Shown here piece by piece: positions 1,447 to 9,226 of a stretch of DNA of 22,100 bases. The stretch comes from a virus, in the IMG/VR virus record IMGVR_UViG_3300027870_000019, positions 1-22,100 of that record, one strand, 5' to 3'. The first letter of the stretch is position 1; every line of letters starts with the position of its first letter. The notes under the pieces are model-generated. The model searched no databases, had not been told where the DNA came from, and saw nothing but the letters and a program-made list of their open reading frames with translations. A program made the translations under genes and the position numbers.

Positions 1447-3692
1447 TAGCGGTTCCTCGCCATTGCCCGGCCTTGTGCGGCAGCGGTTGCCTGCGCGACT
1501 TGCGATGCGCTGTGATATTCGTAACTGCGCGGCACGTTCACTGTGATGTTCGTGACATTGCCGCCGCCCTTGCGCATGGCTTCAACGGCACCGACACCGC
1601 CAGCCGCAGCGATATCCGCCTGCGACCAAACCACTTCTCCCTTGTGGACGATGCCCGCCGGTTGCGTCATTGCGCCGGGGCCGGTGTAGCCGCCAGACGC
1701 ATAACCGCCGCCCATCCACGATAGGAACGAACTGCCCCCGCTCGCAGCGCCAGCACCGCCGCCGCCACTGCCGAACAGCGCGCCGAGCAGGCCGGATAGC
1801 CATCCGCCGCCCTTCGTTCCTGCGCCATCGCTGCCAAGCGAGCCGAACAGTTGATCCATCCATTTGTTTGCGATGGCTTGCGTGATCTGCGCGGCCAATT
1901 CGTCGAAAAAGTCCTTCAGCGCGTCCTTTGCAGACTTCGCGCCGGTCACGAAATCGGTCAGCGCGTTGGCTGCGCCGCGCCGGAAATCGTCCATGAGGTC
2001 GATGGCCTGCTGGCGCGATTGCCCTTCCACCGTGTTCGCGCGGGCCTGCGCAAGCGCCGCCTGTGCCTCTTGGCTGCGAAGGTCGATGCCCTTTTGCAGC
2101 AGCGCATTCATGACCTCGCGCTCGGCGTTCGATTTTCCGATCAGCTCAAGGTCTAGCGCCTGGTTCTTCAGCGCCTGCCCGACCGGATCAAGCTGCGCCT
2201 TGATCGCTTCGGTTTCTTCCTCGTACCGCTTGGTCTCCGCCGCCTTCGCGTCTGCGATTTCCTGCGACGAACGTCCCGCCTGCTTGCCTACGTCGGTGAT
2301 TTCCTGCAACGCTTCCTTGTGGCGTAGCTCGGCCTCTTGCAGCGGGCCAGCGAGGGTTGCGGCCATGCGGTCGAATTGCTGGTTCGCCTCTGCGGTCTTT
2401 GCAACAAGGTCGGCAAGCGCCTGCCGATCCTCTGCGCTGAAATCCGGCATCGCCTTGCGCGAACGCCCGCCGCCACTCTTGCCGCCGACCTTGTCGGTGC
2501 CCGTGTCTGGATCGCCGTTCGGATTGACGGACAGCGCGGGATCGCGTTCGCCCGTGCGCCAGATGATCGGATAGAGGGATTTGGTATTTGCGCCGCCGGT
2601 AACGTTCGTGAAATCGGCAACGGACGGCGCGTTTGGCAGCCCGAACCCGGACGCCATGCGCTTGCCGGCGAGGTCGGCGGCCTTCGTGTCCCCATGCAAT
2701 AAGGCAGATAGCCGATCTTTTGCGCCCGCTAGGAAGTCAAGGCCGGTTCCATTGCGCGTGCCGTCGCCCTTCCCCTTCAGCCCAAGCGAGACTTCAAGTT
2801 GGTTGTTGAAGTCGATCAGCTTCTGGATGCCGACCACGGCCGCATTGGCGACACTGAAAATCCCGTTCACCAACTGCGCGAACGCCGCCTTCGTGTCCGG
2901 CGAATGCATCGTGTCGATCAAATCCTCAAGGGCCGCCTTCGTTCCCTTGATGCCAGCCCCGCCCGTGTCGCCTTCCAGCAGGTCGCCGAACGCTTCCTTC
3001 GCCGCGTCCAGTGCGCCGCCGAGGGTGTCCCGTGCAGCGCGTGCAGCGCCGCCCATTTCGGTCTCAAGCTCGCCGAGGATGATCTTCTGTGCGCTTGCGG
3101 CATCGCCGGTTTCCACCAGCTTCTTGACCAGCTTTTCCTGCGCATCGGTCAACTGCACGCCAACGCGACGAAGCGCGGTCACGCCCTGGATCGGATCGTT
3201 CAGCGCCTTGCCGACCAGCACCGCTGCCGAGTTCAGGTCAGTTCCCATCGCGGTGGCGAGGTTGAGTGTGGCTTCCAGCGCCTTCGGGAACGTCTCCCTG
3301 TGTATATTGGTGAAGGTCAGCAGCAGCGATTGCGCGGAACCGATGGCTTCGTCGCCGTATGTAGTGACGTTTTGCAGCCCCTTCGCCATGTTATTGAGGT
3401 CGCCCAGCGCCAGACCCGCAGCGCCGCCCGTGGACTTGATGCGGGCCGCAAGCTGCGCCTGTACCTTGTCCGCCTCGATGGTGTTGCTAATGACCGCGCC
3501 GAGGAACTTGCCGATCAGCACGCCACCGCCCAGCGCGGCGAAGGCCGTGCCAAGCGCGCCAACGCCGCTCTTCAGCTTGCCAATCGCGCCTTCGGTTTTC
3601 GCGCCCTGCTTTGCGAGGGAGTCAAGGTCGGAGGTTGCACGCTTCGCGCTGCTGGAATCGACCTTGATAACGAGTGAAGCGGTCTCGGTCAT
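1446..3692 (-). CDS. Tape measure protein, 748 aa
   Basis: The ATG at 3692 overlaps the chaperone-fusion stop. This is the tail length ruler, built from long helical stretches. The N-terminus is LVIKVDSSSAKRATSDLDSL. Hydrophobic segments occur around residues 45-70 (GVGALGTAFAALGGGVLIGK). Then come YGDEAIGSAQSLLLTFTNIH and ALNDPIQGVTALRRVGVQLT, the typical tape-measure core. The central part has Lys/Gly/Ser-rich linkers. A long coiled coil (QEAELRHKEALQEITDVGKQ) lies in the second half. The C-terminus has GYTGPGAMTQPAGIVHKGEV with VWSQADIAAAGGVGAVEAMR, a lambda gpH-type terminal motif. By the usual rule of about 0.15 nm per residue the tail would be near 110 nm. The stop TAA overlaps the next ATG. 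Confidence 0.95.
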   Translation of the reverse strand: MTETASLVIKVDSSSAKRATSDLDSLAKQGAKTEGAIGKLKSGVGALGTAFAALGGGVLIGKFLGAVISNTIEADKVQAQLAARIKSTGGAAGLALGDLNNMAKGLQNVTTYGDEAIGSAQSLLLTFTNIHRETFPKALEATLNLATAMGTDLNSAAVLVGKALNDPIQGVTALRRVGVQLTDAQEKLVKKLVETGDAASAQKIILGELETEMGGAARAARDTLGGALDAAKEAFGDLLEGDTGGAGIKGTKAALEDLIDTMHSPDTKAAFAQLVNGIFSVANAAVVGIQKLIDFNNQLEVSLGLKGKGDGTRNGTGLDFLAGAKDRLSALLHGDTKAADLAGKRMASGFGLPNAPSVADFTNVTGGANTKSLYPIIWRTGERDPALSVNPNGDPDTGTDKVGGKSGGGRSRKAMPDFSAEDRQALADLVAKTAEANQQFDRMAATLAGPLQEAELRHKEALQEITDVGKQAGRSSQEIADAKAAETKRYEEETEAIKAQLDPVGQALKNQALDLELIGKSNAEREVMNALLQKGIDLRSQEAQAALAQARANTVEGQSRQQAIDLMDDFRRGAANALTDFVTGAKSAKDALKDFFDELAAQITQAIANKWMDQLFGSLGSDGAGTKGGGWLSGLLGALFGSGGGGAGAASGGSSFLSWMGGGYASGGYTGPGAMTQPAGIVHKGEVVWSQADIAAAGGVGAVEAMRKGGGNVTNITVNVPRSYEYHSASQVAQATAAAQGRAMARNR

Positions 3693-4344
3693 TGAGGATT
3701 CCGTATGAAGTCAAGGCGCACCAATGCCTCGCACTCCCACCCCGCCAATTGGCGATGCGTGAGCGCGGTCCAGTGCGAGAGTTCGGCGTAGGTGACTGGA
3801 CTTCGGAGTTCGCCAAGCCACGCCAGCAGGTAAAGCAGGTCACTCGGGGGGTCGGGAATCTGAAGTTCCGGGGGCGATTGGCCCGTGGCCTTTTTGACCG
3901 CCTCCAGATGCGCCCGCAGGGGTTTCCCGTCCGCCTGCGGGACGCCTAGCTTTACTTCGGCTCGGGCGAACTCGTAGAGGCTGCCGAGCCGCTTCCGAAA
4001 AAAACCTCATCGTCCCCGGCGAAACTATTCACCCGCTCTGCGATCTGTGGCGCATTGCGGAGGAACGCGCGGACTTTCTCCGGCTCCAATTCGCCGAAAG
4101 ACCAGTCCGCGATCAATGCGGCCAGCGCAACGATGCCCGCGTCCCTTGCGACCTGTTCCCGCTTGTCGTCCGGCACCATTGCCACCGCTTGCATGGCCGC
4201 AGACTTCGCGGCCCGGAACTCGTCCGACAGCCGCGACCGCACTTGCAGCCAATGTTCCGTCTGCTTTCCGTCCGGGGTCTGCAACGCCAGGCGTTGGCCT
4301 TCGTTCGCCTTGTCCAGCGTGTAGAACTGTTCCATCGCCGTCAT
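3689..4344 (-). CDS. Tail assembly chaperone, frameshifted G-T fusion form, 218 aa
   Basis: With a -1 shift at TTTTTTC (4003-3997), reading continues from CGG at 3997 without a stop to TGA 3691-3689. This gives 116 residues of the short form plus 102 new ones. The added part reads RKRLGSLYEFARAEVKLGVP, then KPLRAHLEAVKKATGQSPPE, then SDLLYLLAWLGELRSPVTYA, then LTHRQLAGWECEALVRLDFI, ending RNPQ. Such a Tyr/Leu/Trp-rich helical extension is what gpT-type domains look like. Its stop overlaps the tape measure ATG (ATGA), the usual position. The downstream frame has no ATG start, so it is easily missed. The shift itself is inferred from known siphophage biology. Confidence 0.85.
3952..4344 (-). 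CDS. Tail assembly chaperone, short form (G-like), 130 aa
   Basis: The ATG at 4344 overlaps the tail tube stop (TAATG). The protein is mostly helical: MEQFYTLDKANEGQRLALQT, QVRSRLSDEFRAAKSAAMQA, and IVALAALIADWSFGELEPEK (70-90), ending with VRAFLRNAPQIAERVNSFAG and a Ser-rich tail. This is the form of the upstream tail assembly chaperone (lambda gpG role) that coats the tape measure before tube growth. Near its end (codons 115-116, F-F) lies the T TTT TTC slippery sequence, and the -1 frame continues into a gpT-like part. It ends normally at TAA 3952 when no shift occurs. Confidence 0.88.
   Translation of the reverse strand: MTAMEQFYTLDKANEGQRLALQTPDGKQTEHWLQVRSRLSDEFRAAKSAAMQAVAMVPDDKREQVARDAGIVALAALIADWSFGELEPEKVRAFLRNAPQIAERVNSFAGDDEVFFGSGSAASTSSPEPK
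3997..4003 (-). promoter_or_regulatory. -1 programmed frameshift slippery heptamer T TTT TTC
   Basis: Within the chaperone gene, on the minus strand, the codons GTT TTT TTC contain T TTT TTC in the X XXY YYZ phase, which allows tandem slippage into the -1 frame. The frame entered stays open for 102 codons and ends exactly at the tape measure start. The GC-rich sequence downstream (AAGCGGCTCGGCAGCC) could pair as a stimulator. Frameshift efficiency is not known. Confidence 0.85.
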
Positions 4345-5513
4345 TACGCGCTCCGGGTGATGGTCAGCGTGGTGGCGGCGCTTGAGTCATAGCCGGCGCT
4401 GAAGGTGTATTGCGGGATCAATGCGCCCGGCCCGGACACGCCCTTGCTGGCCTGCGTCAGCAGCACCTTCGGGAAGGTGAAGGTGCGGGTGTTCGTGCCA
4501 TCGCTGAACTGCACTTCGAGGTCGGTTTCGGTCTCGTTGAGCTGCTTGCCGTAGAGCCGACCATCGGGCAGGTAGGCGGACAGCGTGCCGCCCACGGCCG
4601 CAATGCCGTTGCTTACGTCATAGGCCGCGCGCTGGAACAGCGCGAAGTTCGGGGCCATGCCGTTCGACAGGTTGAAATCGAACTGCGTCGCATAGCCAAT
4701 GGTGCTTCCGTCCTCGGATAGCGAACCTTGCGAAGTCACCATGAAGTTGGAGGTGGACGCCGCCGCGAACGTGGCGTCTGCCGGAACTTGGTATGCCTCG
4801 GCAGCGGTGCCGATGACGCCGAAGGTGATCCCAACCGCCGCGTCGATGGGCGCGGTCACGGCCACGGTATTGACCCGGCAGCCGCGATAGATGAAATCCA
4901 CCTTCGCCACGATGGTCACCGATTCGCCGGCCGCATCGTCCACCAGCGTGACCGCAGCACCGGCCGCATCGGTCACGGTCAGTTTCCCGGCCGCCGCCGT
5001 GGCGATCTTGAACACGCCGTTGTTGCCAGCATCGCCCGTGAATCCGGAGACAGTAATCAGGTCGCCGACCGCGAATCCTGCGGTCACGAAGCCCGAGCCG
5101 GAATCGTTGAAGCTGCTATCGGAAGCGGTCGCGGACAGGGTAGCCGCCGTGATCGTCGCGTTGTTGATATCCGAATGACGCTCAAGGATGCTGAAGCTGC
5201 GTTCGGTGCTGCCGACCTTCAGGACGTTGGTTGCCCACGTTCCCTGCATCGCCATTTCGAGGAAGTCGTCGAAACTGTCATCCGACAATTCGGCGACGAT
5301 ATCGCCCTGCGTCGAATAGGTGCCCTGCCGCGACAACGGGCGCTGGCGGTTTTGGTTGATTTCATTGGAATCGACCTGCGTCGTATTCCGGGCAAGCGTG
5401 GAAGTGTTGTAACGGATCGGCTTGAACTCAGGCGCGGTCGGATCAATCGCGCCGGACGCATCCTCGACGATGAAGTAATACTTGACGGCCGAGCCGTTTG
5501 CGGACTTGGACAT
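4344..5513 (-). CDS. Major tail tube protein, 389 aa
   Basis: I use the ATG at 5513, preceded by GGAGA seven bases upstream, rather than the TTG two codons earlier. The N-terminus KYYFIVEDASGAIDPTAPEF with FKPIRYNTSTLARNTTQVDS, then QGTYSTQGDIVAELSDDSFD and FLEMAMQGTW, is the pattern of long-tail tube proteins (Phage_tube_2-like). A separate beta-domain of about 85 residues (119-204, SFNDSGSGFVTAGFAVGDLI and VSGFTGDAGNNGVFKI) is inserted in the middle. The fold then resumes with KVDFIYRGCRVNTVAV, and GYATQFDFNLSNGMAP follows. The protein polymerises into the tail tube; the inserted domain is probably exposed on the tail surface. The stop TAA overlaps the chaperone ATG. Confidence 0.88.
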   Translation of the reverse strand: MSKSANGSAVKYYFIVEDASGAIDPTAPEFKPIRYNTSTLARNTTQVDSNEINQNRQRPLSRQGTYSTQGDIVAELSDDSFDDFLEMAMQGTWATNVLKVGSTERSFSILERHSDINNATITAATLSATASDSSFNDSGSGFVTAGFAVGDLITVSGFTGDAGNNGVFKIATAAAGKLTVTDAAGAAVTLVDDAAGESVTIVAKVDFIYRGCRVNTVAVTAPIDAAVGITFGVIGTAAEAYQVPADATFAAASTSNFMVTSQGSLSEDGSTIGYATQFDFNLSNGMAPNFALFQRAAYDVSNGIAAVGGTLSAYLPDGRLYGKQLNETETDLEVQFSDGTNTRTFTFPKVLLTQASKGVSGPGALIPQYTFSAGYDSSAATTLTITRSA

Positions 5514-6743: not shown

Positions 6744-6905
6744 CTAGCTTGTTCTAGGTCTCGTGGCCTCTCGGATGATCGCGTACAGCAGCCAAATGGA
6801 GCCGCCAAACGCGAGCAATATTGGCACCAATGCCAAACTGCCGATGACGAAAACCCATACCAAGCCGACCAGCGCCACGATTGCAGAAATCAGAATGTTC
6901 GCCAT
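6744..6905 (-). CDS. Small two-helix membrane protein in the neck module, 53 aa
   Basis: I use the ATG at 6905 because a strong ribosome site (GGAGG) lies just upstream; a longer start at 6959 would add a polar leader. The protein is almost all hydrophobic: residues 2-21 (ANILISAIVALVGLVWVFVI) and 25-44 (ALVPILLAFGGSIWLLYAII). It ends in a basic tail, REATRPRTS, giving two transmembrane helices. A membrane protein in the middle of the neck genes does not fit virion assembly, so a moron-type gene (host-membrane function such as exclusion) is plausible. No family is recognised. A terminator-like hairpin follows it. Confidence 0.62.
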   Translation of the reverse strand: MANILISAIVALVGLVWVFVIGSLALVPILLAFGGSIWLLYAIIREATRPRTS

Positions 6906-6933
6906 ATCGCCTCCGTTCGTTGACGGTGCGATC

Positions 6934-7434
6934 TTACGCCCGAATGGCAAACAGTCCACGGTTCAGCAGGTAGTCCGCGAATTGCGCCCGCGATTGCCGA
7001 TCCGGTGCCGCCGGCAGGAGCCGCGCGGTGTTGTTGCTGGCGACCGCATATTCCACTTCGATCACGTCCACCTTCGTCCGCGTCACCGCGCCCTGTCGCT
7101 GGCCAACCGGATCGGTGTCATCTTGGTAAATCTCGCACGCAAGCGCCATCTGGCCGTACTGGATGCGCGCCGGGATCAGGTTCGACGGCAGCGTTTCGCA
7201 GTCCACCACGACGCACTCGCGCGGCCATGCGAGGCTTTGCGTGGCCTCCGCGCGGCTGCCCTTCCATTTCTCGGCATTCATCTGCAACGCCGCCCGGCGC
7301 AATAGCGCCTCTTTCTCAGCGTCTGTCGCCGGCATGGTGAAGCCGTAATTGCTGGCGTAGGCGGTCAGGTCGGCAGCGGATGCATAACTATCGGCGCCCG
7401 CAACCCCGGTGCCGTCCTCAATCGTCAATGCCAT
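6934..7434 (-). CDS. Head-tail connector / adaptor protein (DnaT-like fold annotation), 166 aa
   Basis: The ATG at 7434 lies inside the end of the previous gene. The protein begins MALTIEDGTGVAGADSYASA and contains ADLTAYASNYGFTMP, KEALLRRAALQMNAEKWKGS, and SLAWPRECVVVDCETLPSNL. It then has PARIQYGQMALACEIYQDD and a C-terminal VEYAVASNNTARLLPAAPDR. This is the pattern of the phage protein family commonly labelled DnaT-like ssDNA-binding but located at the adaptor (gp6-like) position between capsid and tail genes. An adaptor of the head-tail connector is the likely role; the label's DNA-binding sense is not supported by motifs here. Confidence 0.78.
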   Translation of the reverse strand: MALTIEDGTGVAGADSYASAADLTAYASNYGFTMPATDAEKEALLRRAALQMNAEKWKGSRAEATQSLAWPRECVVVDCETLPSNLIPARIQYGQMALACEIYQDDTDPVGQRQGAVTRTKVDVIEVEYAVASNNTARLLPAAPDRQSRAQFADYLLNRGLFAIRA

Positions 7435-8231
7435 CGGTCTAGGTTCCTCGTGACAAAATCCGCCGCCAGCCCGCTACGCATTTCCGCTAGCGTCCATTGC
7501 CCGTATGCCAACCGGGCGCACAATGTTCGCCTGGCCGCCATGGATGGCAGCCTTGGGCCGGACAGCGTACCCCAGCACGCCCGGTCGGGCATGGTCGCCA
7601 TCGCGGGCACGCCGGCCAGGATCGCATCCAATCCCGCCGTGCTGCACAAGGTATAGACCACGCTGGAATCGGCCAGCACCGCGTCTAGAGGCCCGTCCGC
7701 GCGTTCGGCATCCACCGCCAAGCTGGGACTGTCCGGATGCGCCCTGAAGCGCGCACCGTGCGCGTCACACAGCCATTGCGCCCAATTGGCCATTTCAACC
7801 GCGCCCAGCCCGTGCGACGGGTCGCCGATATGCTGTCCAAGCACCAGCGGAACATTGCCCTTCCCCTTCGGCTTGACCGCGATCCCCAGCGAGTCGAACC
7901 GATCCGAAGGGCACTCGAAGCTGGGCGGACGATTCAACCCGCCGACGCCTACCTGCCAATGCCCTGTTTCCCACGTCGCCATCCCGCTTGTCCGTGCGAG
8001 GTAGCCGTAATCCATGACGATGACCGGAACGCCGATCCTTTCGTAATCCTCAAGGATGACGCGGCCCTTGCCGCGCATCCCCGTGATGACCACCGCCCCG
8101 AACGATTCCGTTTGTCCGGGGCAGTGATCCGATGCCGAACGCCTTACCGCACGATGACCGCACGCCTCAAGGCCGGCAGAAAACGCGCCGGCCTCAAGGT
8201 TGTAATCGCCCGCATAGACGCCGACCTTCAT
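7425..8231 (-). CDS. GT-B glycosyltransferase-like protein in the head module, 268 aa
   Basis: The ATG at 8231 lies five bases after the capsid stop; the longer ORF to 8696 only shadows the capsid gene. The N-terminal half starts with a strand-loop MKVGVYAGDYNLEAGAFSAG, and residues 66-75 (IGVPVIVMDY) look like the end of a Rossmann-like domain. The C-terminal half has RFRAHPDSPS (161-170) and VVYTLCSTAGLDAILAGVPA (191-210). These resemble the HP and S-T-x-G-L-x-A-xxxG-x-P motifs of capsule or polysaccharide GT-B transferases (KpsC-like and related). No donor or acceptor can be read. A modifier of the phage's own capsid or host surface sugars is possible. It overlaps the next gene by 10 bases. 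Confidence 0.68.
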   Translation of the reverse strand: MKVGVYAGDYNLEAGAFSAGLEACGHRAVRRSASDHCPGQTESFGAVVITGMRGKGRVILEDYERIGVPVIVMDYGYLARTSGMATWETGHWQVGVGGLNRPPSFECPSDRFDSLGIAVKPKGKGNVPLVLGQHIGDPSHGLGAVEMANWAQWLCDAHGARFRAHPDSPSLAVDAERADGPLDAVLADSSVVYTLCSTAGLDAILAGVPAMATMPDRACWGTLSGPRLPSMAARRTLCARLAYGQWTLAEMRSGLAADFVTRNLDRWH

Positions 8232-8236
8232 CCTTC

Positions 8237-9226
8237 TTAGCTCGACACCACCAGGATGCCGGCGTAGTCCTTGTAGGACGAAGCCGCAGCATCCCAATTG
8301 GTGCCCGTGCCAACGGCCGCATCCAGCGGGTTCGCGCCGCCGCTGCCGGTATCCCACTTGAAGCCCTTGACGCCGAGGTTGTAGGCCGATTCGCCCTGCA
8401 AGCGGACGATCAGGTTTTCCAACCCCGTGACGATCTGGGCTTCCATCGTGGACTGCTCGGAGTCCTCCACGACGATGGCATTCGGCACAAGACCGAGGGT
8501 GTGATACTTCGTCACCGCAGCGGTGCCGGTGCCCGTGGTCACGACCAGCGCATCGGAGTCGGTCACGATGACCGGACGGTTCAGGGTCAGCGGGTTCGCA
8601 CCCTGCACCGCAGCGCCGGCCACGATATCGCCATTGGCCGAGGTGCCGATCTGGTGCTTCATCAGGTCGAAATAGACCTTCGAGTGCATGACCCACGCGC
8701 CGATGTTGTTCGCCGCGTCGCCGAACTTGGCGAGGCCGGACACCAGGTCAACCGTGGTGATCGTCGAAGCCGCGTCGAACTGCGTGGTGTTGGCCGTGTC
8801 CAGCGCAGCGCGGCAAGCGCGCAGGCCGGTATTCAGCATTTCCACTTCCATCGCCTTGGCGATCTGCGTGCCGATCAGGAAGGACAGCGCATCCTCGCCG
8901 GCCTCCATCTGCACCTTGCGGAATGAATCCAACGTCTGGCCGACCGGGCCGATCTTGCGGTTCAGCTTGACCGAGATGATCTCGTCCATCGCAACGGCGA
9001 GGTCGGTGGCGGTCGAAACCGAAGTGGTGTCGCGGCGAGTCACCAGCGAGGAAATCGTCTTGATGAACGATTCCTTCGCGTAATCGCCTCGACGCGATAC
9101 GGTGCCGAGGCGAATCGCGCCGCCAGCAGCGTTGAAGAAGGCCGAAGCCTGCGTAAGACGCTCGACGATGCCGCCGCGCATCTCGTCCTGGTAAATCTTG
9201 AAATCCGAAGCCTTGCCGGTTGCCAT
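8237..9226 (-). CDS. Major capsid protein, 329 aa
   Basis: The ATG at 9226 has an AGAGGA ribosome site nine bases upstream, fitting a highly expressed gene. The protein contains FKIYQDEMRGGIVERLTQAS near the N-terminus, GDYAKESFIKTISSLVTRRD, then the helix VGQTLDSFRKVQMEAGEDAL with GTQIAKAMEVEMLNTGLRA. A domain with IGAWVMHSKVYFDLMKHQI and LNRPVIVTDSDALV follows. This layout matches major capsid proteins following a scaffold gene; an HK97-like fold is expected from the family, not shown. The C-terminus is Gly/Ala/Asn-rich, ending KDYAGILVVSS. Confidence 0.88.
   Translation of the reverse strand: MATGKASDFKIYQDEMRGGIVERLTQASAFFNAAGGAIRLGTVSRRGDYAKESFIKTISSLVTRRDTTSVSTATDLAVAMDEIISVKLNRKIGPVGQTLDSFRKVQMEAGEDALSFLIGTQIAKAMEVEMLNTGLRACRAALDTANTTQFDAASTITTVDLVSGLAKFGDAANNIGAWVMHSKVYFDLMKHQIGTSANGDIVAGAAVQGANPLTLNRPVIVTDSDALVVTTGTGTAAVTKYHTLGLVPNAIVVEDSEQSTMEAQIVTGLENLIVRLQGESAYNLGVKGFKWDTGSGGANPLDAAVGTGTNWDAAASSYKDYAGILVVSS

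Follow-up and report, generated by a model that had tools for sequence, protein, structure and literature searches.

By fold, the closest described systems are the retaining β-Kdo transferases KpsC, WbbB, and KrkA, which have in common a nucleophilic Asp within a QxxxD motif and an HP motif for CMP (PMC10148158, PMC9587256, PMC12887879). Known members of this fold group use glycans, and not proteins, as acceptors. Direct modification of a protein is described for the Maf flagellin glycosyltransferases, which transfer from CMP-ulosonates, Kdo included, directly onto surface Ser/Thr residues (PMC11339370). Among phages, glycosyltransferases encoded by mycobacteriophages of the Che8 type place covalent glycans on the capsid (Freeman et al. 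2023, as cited in PMC11256854). Glycosylation of phage virions and transferases of the Kdo kind have each been described separately; few phages are established cases of capsid glycosylation, and literature text searches found no CMP-Kdo-type enzyme reported for phage capsids.

The stretch of DNA analyzed here (the window) is an entire IMG/VR record of 22.1 kb, in which a predicted Kdo-type glycosyltransferase (GT) is encoded between the genes for the major capsid protein (MCP) and a head-tail adaptor. The predicted enzyme shares with the N- and C-modules of KpsC (GT107) and with WbbB (GT99) a modified GT-B fold, QxxxD, HP, and an acidic residue at the base position. It differs from them in its low identity (12–19% in structural alignments), its much shorter length (268 aa, one module), an Asp at the base position where they have Glu, and its location in a phage head operon with no capsule or LPS genes adjoining, where its acceptor would be a protein. 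The fold group, QxxxD, and HP are also common to KrkA (GT140), a retaining enzyme that transfers Kdo in E. coli K13; however, KrkA is more distant (Z of about 11), takes its base, E102, from another structural element, and is a polymerizing capsule enzyme. The Che8-type system, as described in PMC11256854, differs in its actinobacterial hosts and in the position of the Maravista glycosyltransferase genes, which lie near the 3' end of the genome and not between MCP and adaptor. The Maf enzymes differ in having flagellin as acceptor, and the searches made revealed no sequence relation to the window GT.

Position and relatives of the glycosyltransferase gene

The features of the window on which the analysis rests are as follows.

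6934–7434, minus strand: head-tail adaptor Ad1 (phrog_477, E 3e-46), overlapping the GT gene by 10 nt
7425–8231, minus strand: predicted Kdo-type glycosyltransferase gene (GT), 268 aa, assigned by profile, predicted fold, and motifs
7482–7508, minus strand: GT residues A242–E250, family signature AYGQWTLAE, with Q245 in 72 of 72 relatives
7605–7652, minus strand: GT residues T194–P209, TLCSTAGLDAILAGVP, nucleotide-site motif
7734–7739, minus strand: GT H165–P166, HP motif (CMP phosphate)
7821–7835, minus strand: GT Q133-x-x-x-D137, QxxxD motif, with D137 aligned to the nucleophile Asp of KpsC and WbbB
7899–7901, minus strand: GT R111 of the PSDRF motif, in 71 of 72 relatives
7995–8231, minus strand: N-terminal Rossmann-like domain of GT, residues 1–79, homologous to stand-alone small proteins of the same slot
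8010–8012, minus strand: GT D74, in the motif D/E-x-G-Y-x-x-R, at the alignment position of E66, the general base of KpsC
8237–9226, minus strand: MCP, HK97 fold (phrog_247, E 1e-43), proposed acceptor
8522–8533, minus strand: GTGT, MCP residues 232–235, in a β-hairpin turn, proposed glycosylation site from covariation with GT and the MCP model

The GT open reading frame starts with ATG and runs for 268 codons free of internal stops. Its ATG lies exactly 5 nt past the MCP stop (8237–8239) and its stop falls inside the adaptor gene, an arrangement already noted in the first-pass annotation, which had also quoted two motifs found here at residues 161–168 (RFRAHPDS) and 196–209 (CSTAGLDAILAGVP). 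The GT gene is a real gene under purifying selection, because its full frame is kept in relatives at 84, 70, 63, and 59% identity, with dN/dS values of 0.14, 0.19, 0.20, and 0.13 against the four (range 0.13–0.20). All head, neck, and tail genes of the window are on the minus strand, and PHROGs assigned head closure, neck, tail terminator, portal, terminase, scaffold, MuF-like head protein, and tape measure functions around GT. This gene layout suggests that GT is co-transcribed with the virion genes; between positions 5500 and 16500 of the window no promoter-like sites were found, and terminator-like sites were no more frequent than chance. Two further minus-strand ORFs were observed: a short, very hydrophobic one between the adaptor and head-closure genes (6744–6959; MANILISAIVALVGLVWVFVIGSLALVPILLAFGGSIWLLYAII...), and one just downstream of the tape measure (850–1446) encoding 198 aa with a match to phrog_2913, "glycoside hydrolase" (E 2.5e-44).

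Relatives of GT were collected from IMG/VR and GTDB scans down to approximately 25% identity. Loci carrying GT together with an MCP of the window kind have the order MuF, scaffold, MCP, GT, adaptor, and head closure, and most related loci that have GT and MCP retain GT in the slot between MCP and adaptor. All 13 host-genome matches to GT were in Pseudomonadota or Planctomycetes, and the relatives include prophages; GT-bearing candidates, if intact, are L062 (Pseudoxanthomonas kalamensis), L067 (Pusillimonas noertemannii), and L065 (Rhodanobacter lindaniclasticus). Among 50,697 GenBank phage records no close relative was found, the only matches being MW202713 and Caulobacter jumbo phages at 24–30% identity; in the latter, the relatives lie outside the MCP–adaptor slot. 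Also outside the head-slot context, a podovirus carries a relative with TibC-like, methyltransferase, and PLP genes, and marine phages carry two or three tandem copies in which the motifs are partly lost. In MW202713.1 the homologue is an unannotated 273-aa ORF (37086–37907; L007:4792–5613) between methyltransferase and PLP-enzyme genes. Divergent GT copies, in tandem or otherwise repeated, were observed in the metagenomic phages L033, L040, L038, L039 (three), L036 (two), and L026/L147 (two), some of which have lost QxxxD and changed HP to KP. In L013, an ORF that resembles HNH endonucleases in sequence (3105–3842) is inserted between MCP and GT and is perhaps a homing element. In Tunturiibacter phage Tunturi_4 a glycosyltransferase gene stands ahead of the portal gene, and the MCP loop discussed below does not carry the motif.

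Predicted fold, catalytic motifs and the stand-alone N-terminal domain

The GT protein had no match in PHROGs and reached no cut-off in Pfam or NCBIfam, where matches were sub-threshold only, including PF05159 Capsule_synth (11.2 bits against a cut-off of 20) and PF20471 DUF6716, "putative glycosyltransferase" (16.1 bits against 27). A search of the PDB with the single sequence returned nothing meaningful, and a profile was needed. The profile of 35 GT relatives (A3) matched KpsC (6mgc, E 2.6e-6) and WbbB (5fa0, E 5e-6), placing QvpgD on QTFND, RPHP on VKVHP, and D-x-G-Y on E-D-G-F of KpsC. The same correspondences were obtained with hhalign against KpsC modules of Cupriavidus, Citrobacter, and Cereibacter (probability 98.5%, E 2e-14). 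The AlphaFold model of GT (pLDDT 96.3, pTM 0.91) gave KpsC, WbbB, and KrkA as top PDB matches in Foldseek (E 3e-9), and in VIA-align it reached Z 14.3 with KpsC (235 residues, 4.3 Å), 13.5 with WbbB, and 11.2 with KrkA, against 8.8 or less for unrelated folds.

The residues expected to be catalytic are conserved: in A3, Q133 and D137 are at least 90% conserved and H165–P166 is invariant. The base position is D74 in the window GT and D or E across relatives, compared with Glu in KpsC (E66) and WbbB (E158); the base of KrkA is differently placed, so the base can move within the fold group (PMC12887879). On profile and model evidence, GT is predicted to be a divergent GT-B-like member of the retaining β-Kdo fold group (KpsC/WbbB), with no single CAZy family assigned. 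The GT-B call of the first-pass annotation is thus borne out by both the sequence profile and the predicted fold, and narrowed to this group, and the motifs are not degraded in most relatives. The fold was also found in several proteins of Tetraselmis virus 1, a green-algal giant virus (BFVD matches A0A2P0VNK4 and A0A2P0VP72); these may be Kdo enzymes too, because Tetraselmis scales contain Kdo.

A search based on the MCP revealed many relatives lacking GT, in which the slot usually holds a protein of 90–215 aa. The first approximately 80 residues of these small slot proteins are homologous to the N-terminal domain of GT: an HMM of 24 of them finds GTs with E-values down to 7e-8, and the hhalign comparison with the GT N-domain gives a probability of 95.9% (E 5e-9). 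One such protein follows the end of the MCP gene at L089:80–487, with equivalents in L091–L148 and L158–L230, and their tails are acidic, Lys/Arg-rich, or HeH/SAP-like. The N-domain was unmatched in PHROGs in all six representatives searched, one of which was matched by its tail only. By analogy, the small slot proteins may be acceptor-binding modules, because acceptor specificity in the retaining β-Kdo fold group is set by the N-terminal domain (PMC10148158).

Capsid covariation, proposed mechanism and alternatives

An unbiased Ser/Thr (S/T) scan of all 12-residue segments of the MCP, comparing 24 MCPs from phages with GT (GT+) and 38 from phages without it (GT−), ranked the loop at residues 228–243 top (p 4e-8), with the next unrelated region at 3e-4. 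The motif G[ST][GS][ST] was found in this loop in 19 of 24 GT+ and 0 of 38 GT− MCPs, a definition made post hoc on this same set, for which a tree test and newly collected loci served as controls. The difference can be seen between the window (TTGTGTAAVTKY, GT+) and its nearest GT− relative, L077 (VTGTPDAYYTLGL). On an MCP tree built without the loop and tail columns, the motif moved together with GT in six to seven of eight supported independent GT changes and in the opposite direction in none, although the sign test is borderline (median p 0.03, range 0.016–0.06). Among MCPs collected later, none of them more than 93% identical to an MCP of the earlier set, the motif was present in 8 of 10 GT+ and 0 of 20 GT− (p 8e-6). 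The exact motif is absent in 5 of the 24 GT+ phages of the first set and 2 of the 10 of the new set, and it is also absent from GT-less phages with a small slot protein. The MCP model (pLDDT 78.7) has the HK97 fold, with the Acinetobacter phage SH-Ab15497 capsid as nearest structure (Z 28.1), and it places the motif in the turn between strands 228–231 and 238–246.

The same S/T scan of adaptor, scaffold, MuF, and head closure proteins revealed no motif association with GT; the strongest difference outside the MCP, in the adaptor (p 4e-5), was reversed, with less S/T in GT+ phages. A second GTG[ST] of the MCP, at about residue 306, was rejected as acceptor, being common to GT+ and GT− phages. 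Hitchhiking of the 3' end of the MCP gene with GT was also considered; other MCP segments, on both sides of the loop, are without comparable association. Between the window and L003, GT is more alike than the MCP (dN 0.26 versus 0.49), yet their loop motifs match; recombination could move the loop or the 3' part of the MCP gene together with GT.

Covariation of another kind was observed in a second, Burkholderiales-type MCP. Across 43 dereplicated MCPs of this type, a Ser/Gly/Ala-rich C-terminal tail (e.g., SSGSGSASASGSASGSGSGV) was present in each of the 10 whose GT is full-length, in one more whose GT is cut by the contig end, and in none of the 29 without GT or the three with the N-domain only (0/32 together). 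GT and tail each require four changes on the tree of these MCPs, and three of three independent pairs agree, too few for a test alone. A Ser-rich tail as universal acceptor was rejected, as the window MCP type is tailless and has the hairpin loop in its place.

These observations make it likely that a late-expressed, cytoplasmic, retaining β-Kdo-type GT O-glycosylates the capsid, with CMP-β-Kdo as candidate donor. The analysis itself shows the gene with its predicted fold, motifs, synteny, purifying selection, and MCP covariation; catalysis, donor, O-linkage, timing, and benefit are inferred. Late transcription would yield MCP and GT from one message, and GT would then take a sugar acid from the CMP-activated pool of the host, most likely the CMP-β-Kdo of the LPS pathway. 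Nearly all Gram-negative hosts make CMP-Kdo, whereas other CMP-ulosonates are made by some only. Asp137 would form the covalent sugar adduct, His165 acting as the acid that protonates CMP, and the sugar would pass to Ser/Thr hydroxyls of a G-[S/T]-G-[S/T]-type MCP loop (GTGT, 232–235, in the window), or of the Ser/Gly-rich MCP tail in related phages. The outcome would be a sugar-decorated head, for which shielding, stability, or adhesion to surfaces are conceivable benefits.

The first-pass annotation had offered two functions, glycosylation of the virion or alteration of host surface sugars, and the capsid is much better supported than the host surface because a Ser/Thr-Gly loop or tail of the MCP covaries with the GT gene. 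In the second case, GT would act in the infected cell or lysogen on intermediates of LPS or capsule, where an added Kdo-like residue would mask the receptor, resulting in superinfection exclusion or in progeny that do not adsorb to debris. Prophages do occur among the relatives, and the characterized enzymes of the fold group build LPS or capsule (PMC10148158, PMC9587256, PMC12887879). However, this function is unlikely: it does not predict the MCP covariation, the gene is embedded in the late head operon, where it was found to have no separate promoter-like site, and the well-folded model seems to leave no spare segment for membrane anchoring.

Transfer to the MCP of another CMP-sugar (pseudaminic acid, Pse, or other nonulosonate), with Kdo unused, appears improbable, as the model is closest to Kdo enzymes and CMP-Kdo is the donor that Gram-negative hosts widely supply. 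In its favor, Pse has been discussed among the donors that related enzymes might use (PMC12887879), and Maf enzymes place nonulosonates as well as Kdo on protein Ser/Thr (PMC11339370). It is also improbable that GT is a non-enzymatic protein that binds the capsid via its N-domain, with the MCP loop as binding site, as the small slot proteins filling the slot in many GT-less relatives may do, since even distant relatives conserve its catalytic residues, loop and tail follow the catalytic domain and not the N-domain alone, and methyltransferases accompany GT.

Regarding capsid glycosylation in its most specific form, the chances seem about even that GT is a sequon-guided, KpsC/WbbB-like O-ulosonyl transferase placing Kdo or a close relative directly on the Ser/Thr of G[S/T]G[S/T] loops or tails of HK97-fold capsids, and that its acceptor-binding N-domain also exists alone in this slot as a capsid-associated protein, a remnant or ancestor of the enzyme. 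If this is true, retaining β-Kdo transferases would gain a new acceptor class and Gram-negative phages a capsid glycosylation system, and an enzyme group with an unusual double-displacement mechanism would thereby act on proteins as a new kind of substrate. The collections and literature searched contained neither the combination of phage virion glycosylation with a Kdo transferase nor the capsid-slot family, its predicted sequon, or the N-domain paralogues. The family brings together a retaining-Kdo enzyme type, a sequence predicted to be the acceptor sequon, prophages in named hosts, and natural GT+/GT− sister pairs (e.g., L131/L133, L003/L119, and L020/L228), together with a possible function for unannotated proteins adjoining the capsid gene in many phages.

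Accessory genes of sugar type were observed in several loci. Between GT and adaptor, SAM methyltransferases are encoded in L023, L025, L030, and L080, the last of TylF/Methyltransf_24 type, and methyltransferases were assigned by sequence resemblance in L079 and L081. L041 has a GDP-mannose dehydratase and a methyltransferase, and L147 an FkbM methyltransferase and a cytidylyltransferase-like protein, next to which lies a protein that looks like a GT-A enzyme but has no Pfam match. These genes are consistent with a further-decorated glycan. In the GT-less L208, a GT2 domain protein (1943–3526) directly follows the MCP gene in the place of the Kdo-type GT, and the MCP ends in DLSSGS.
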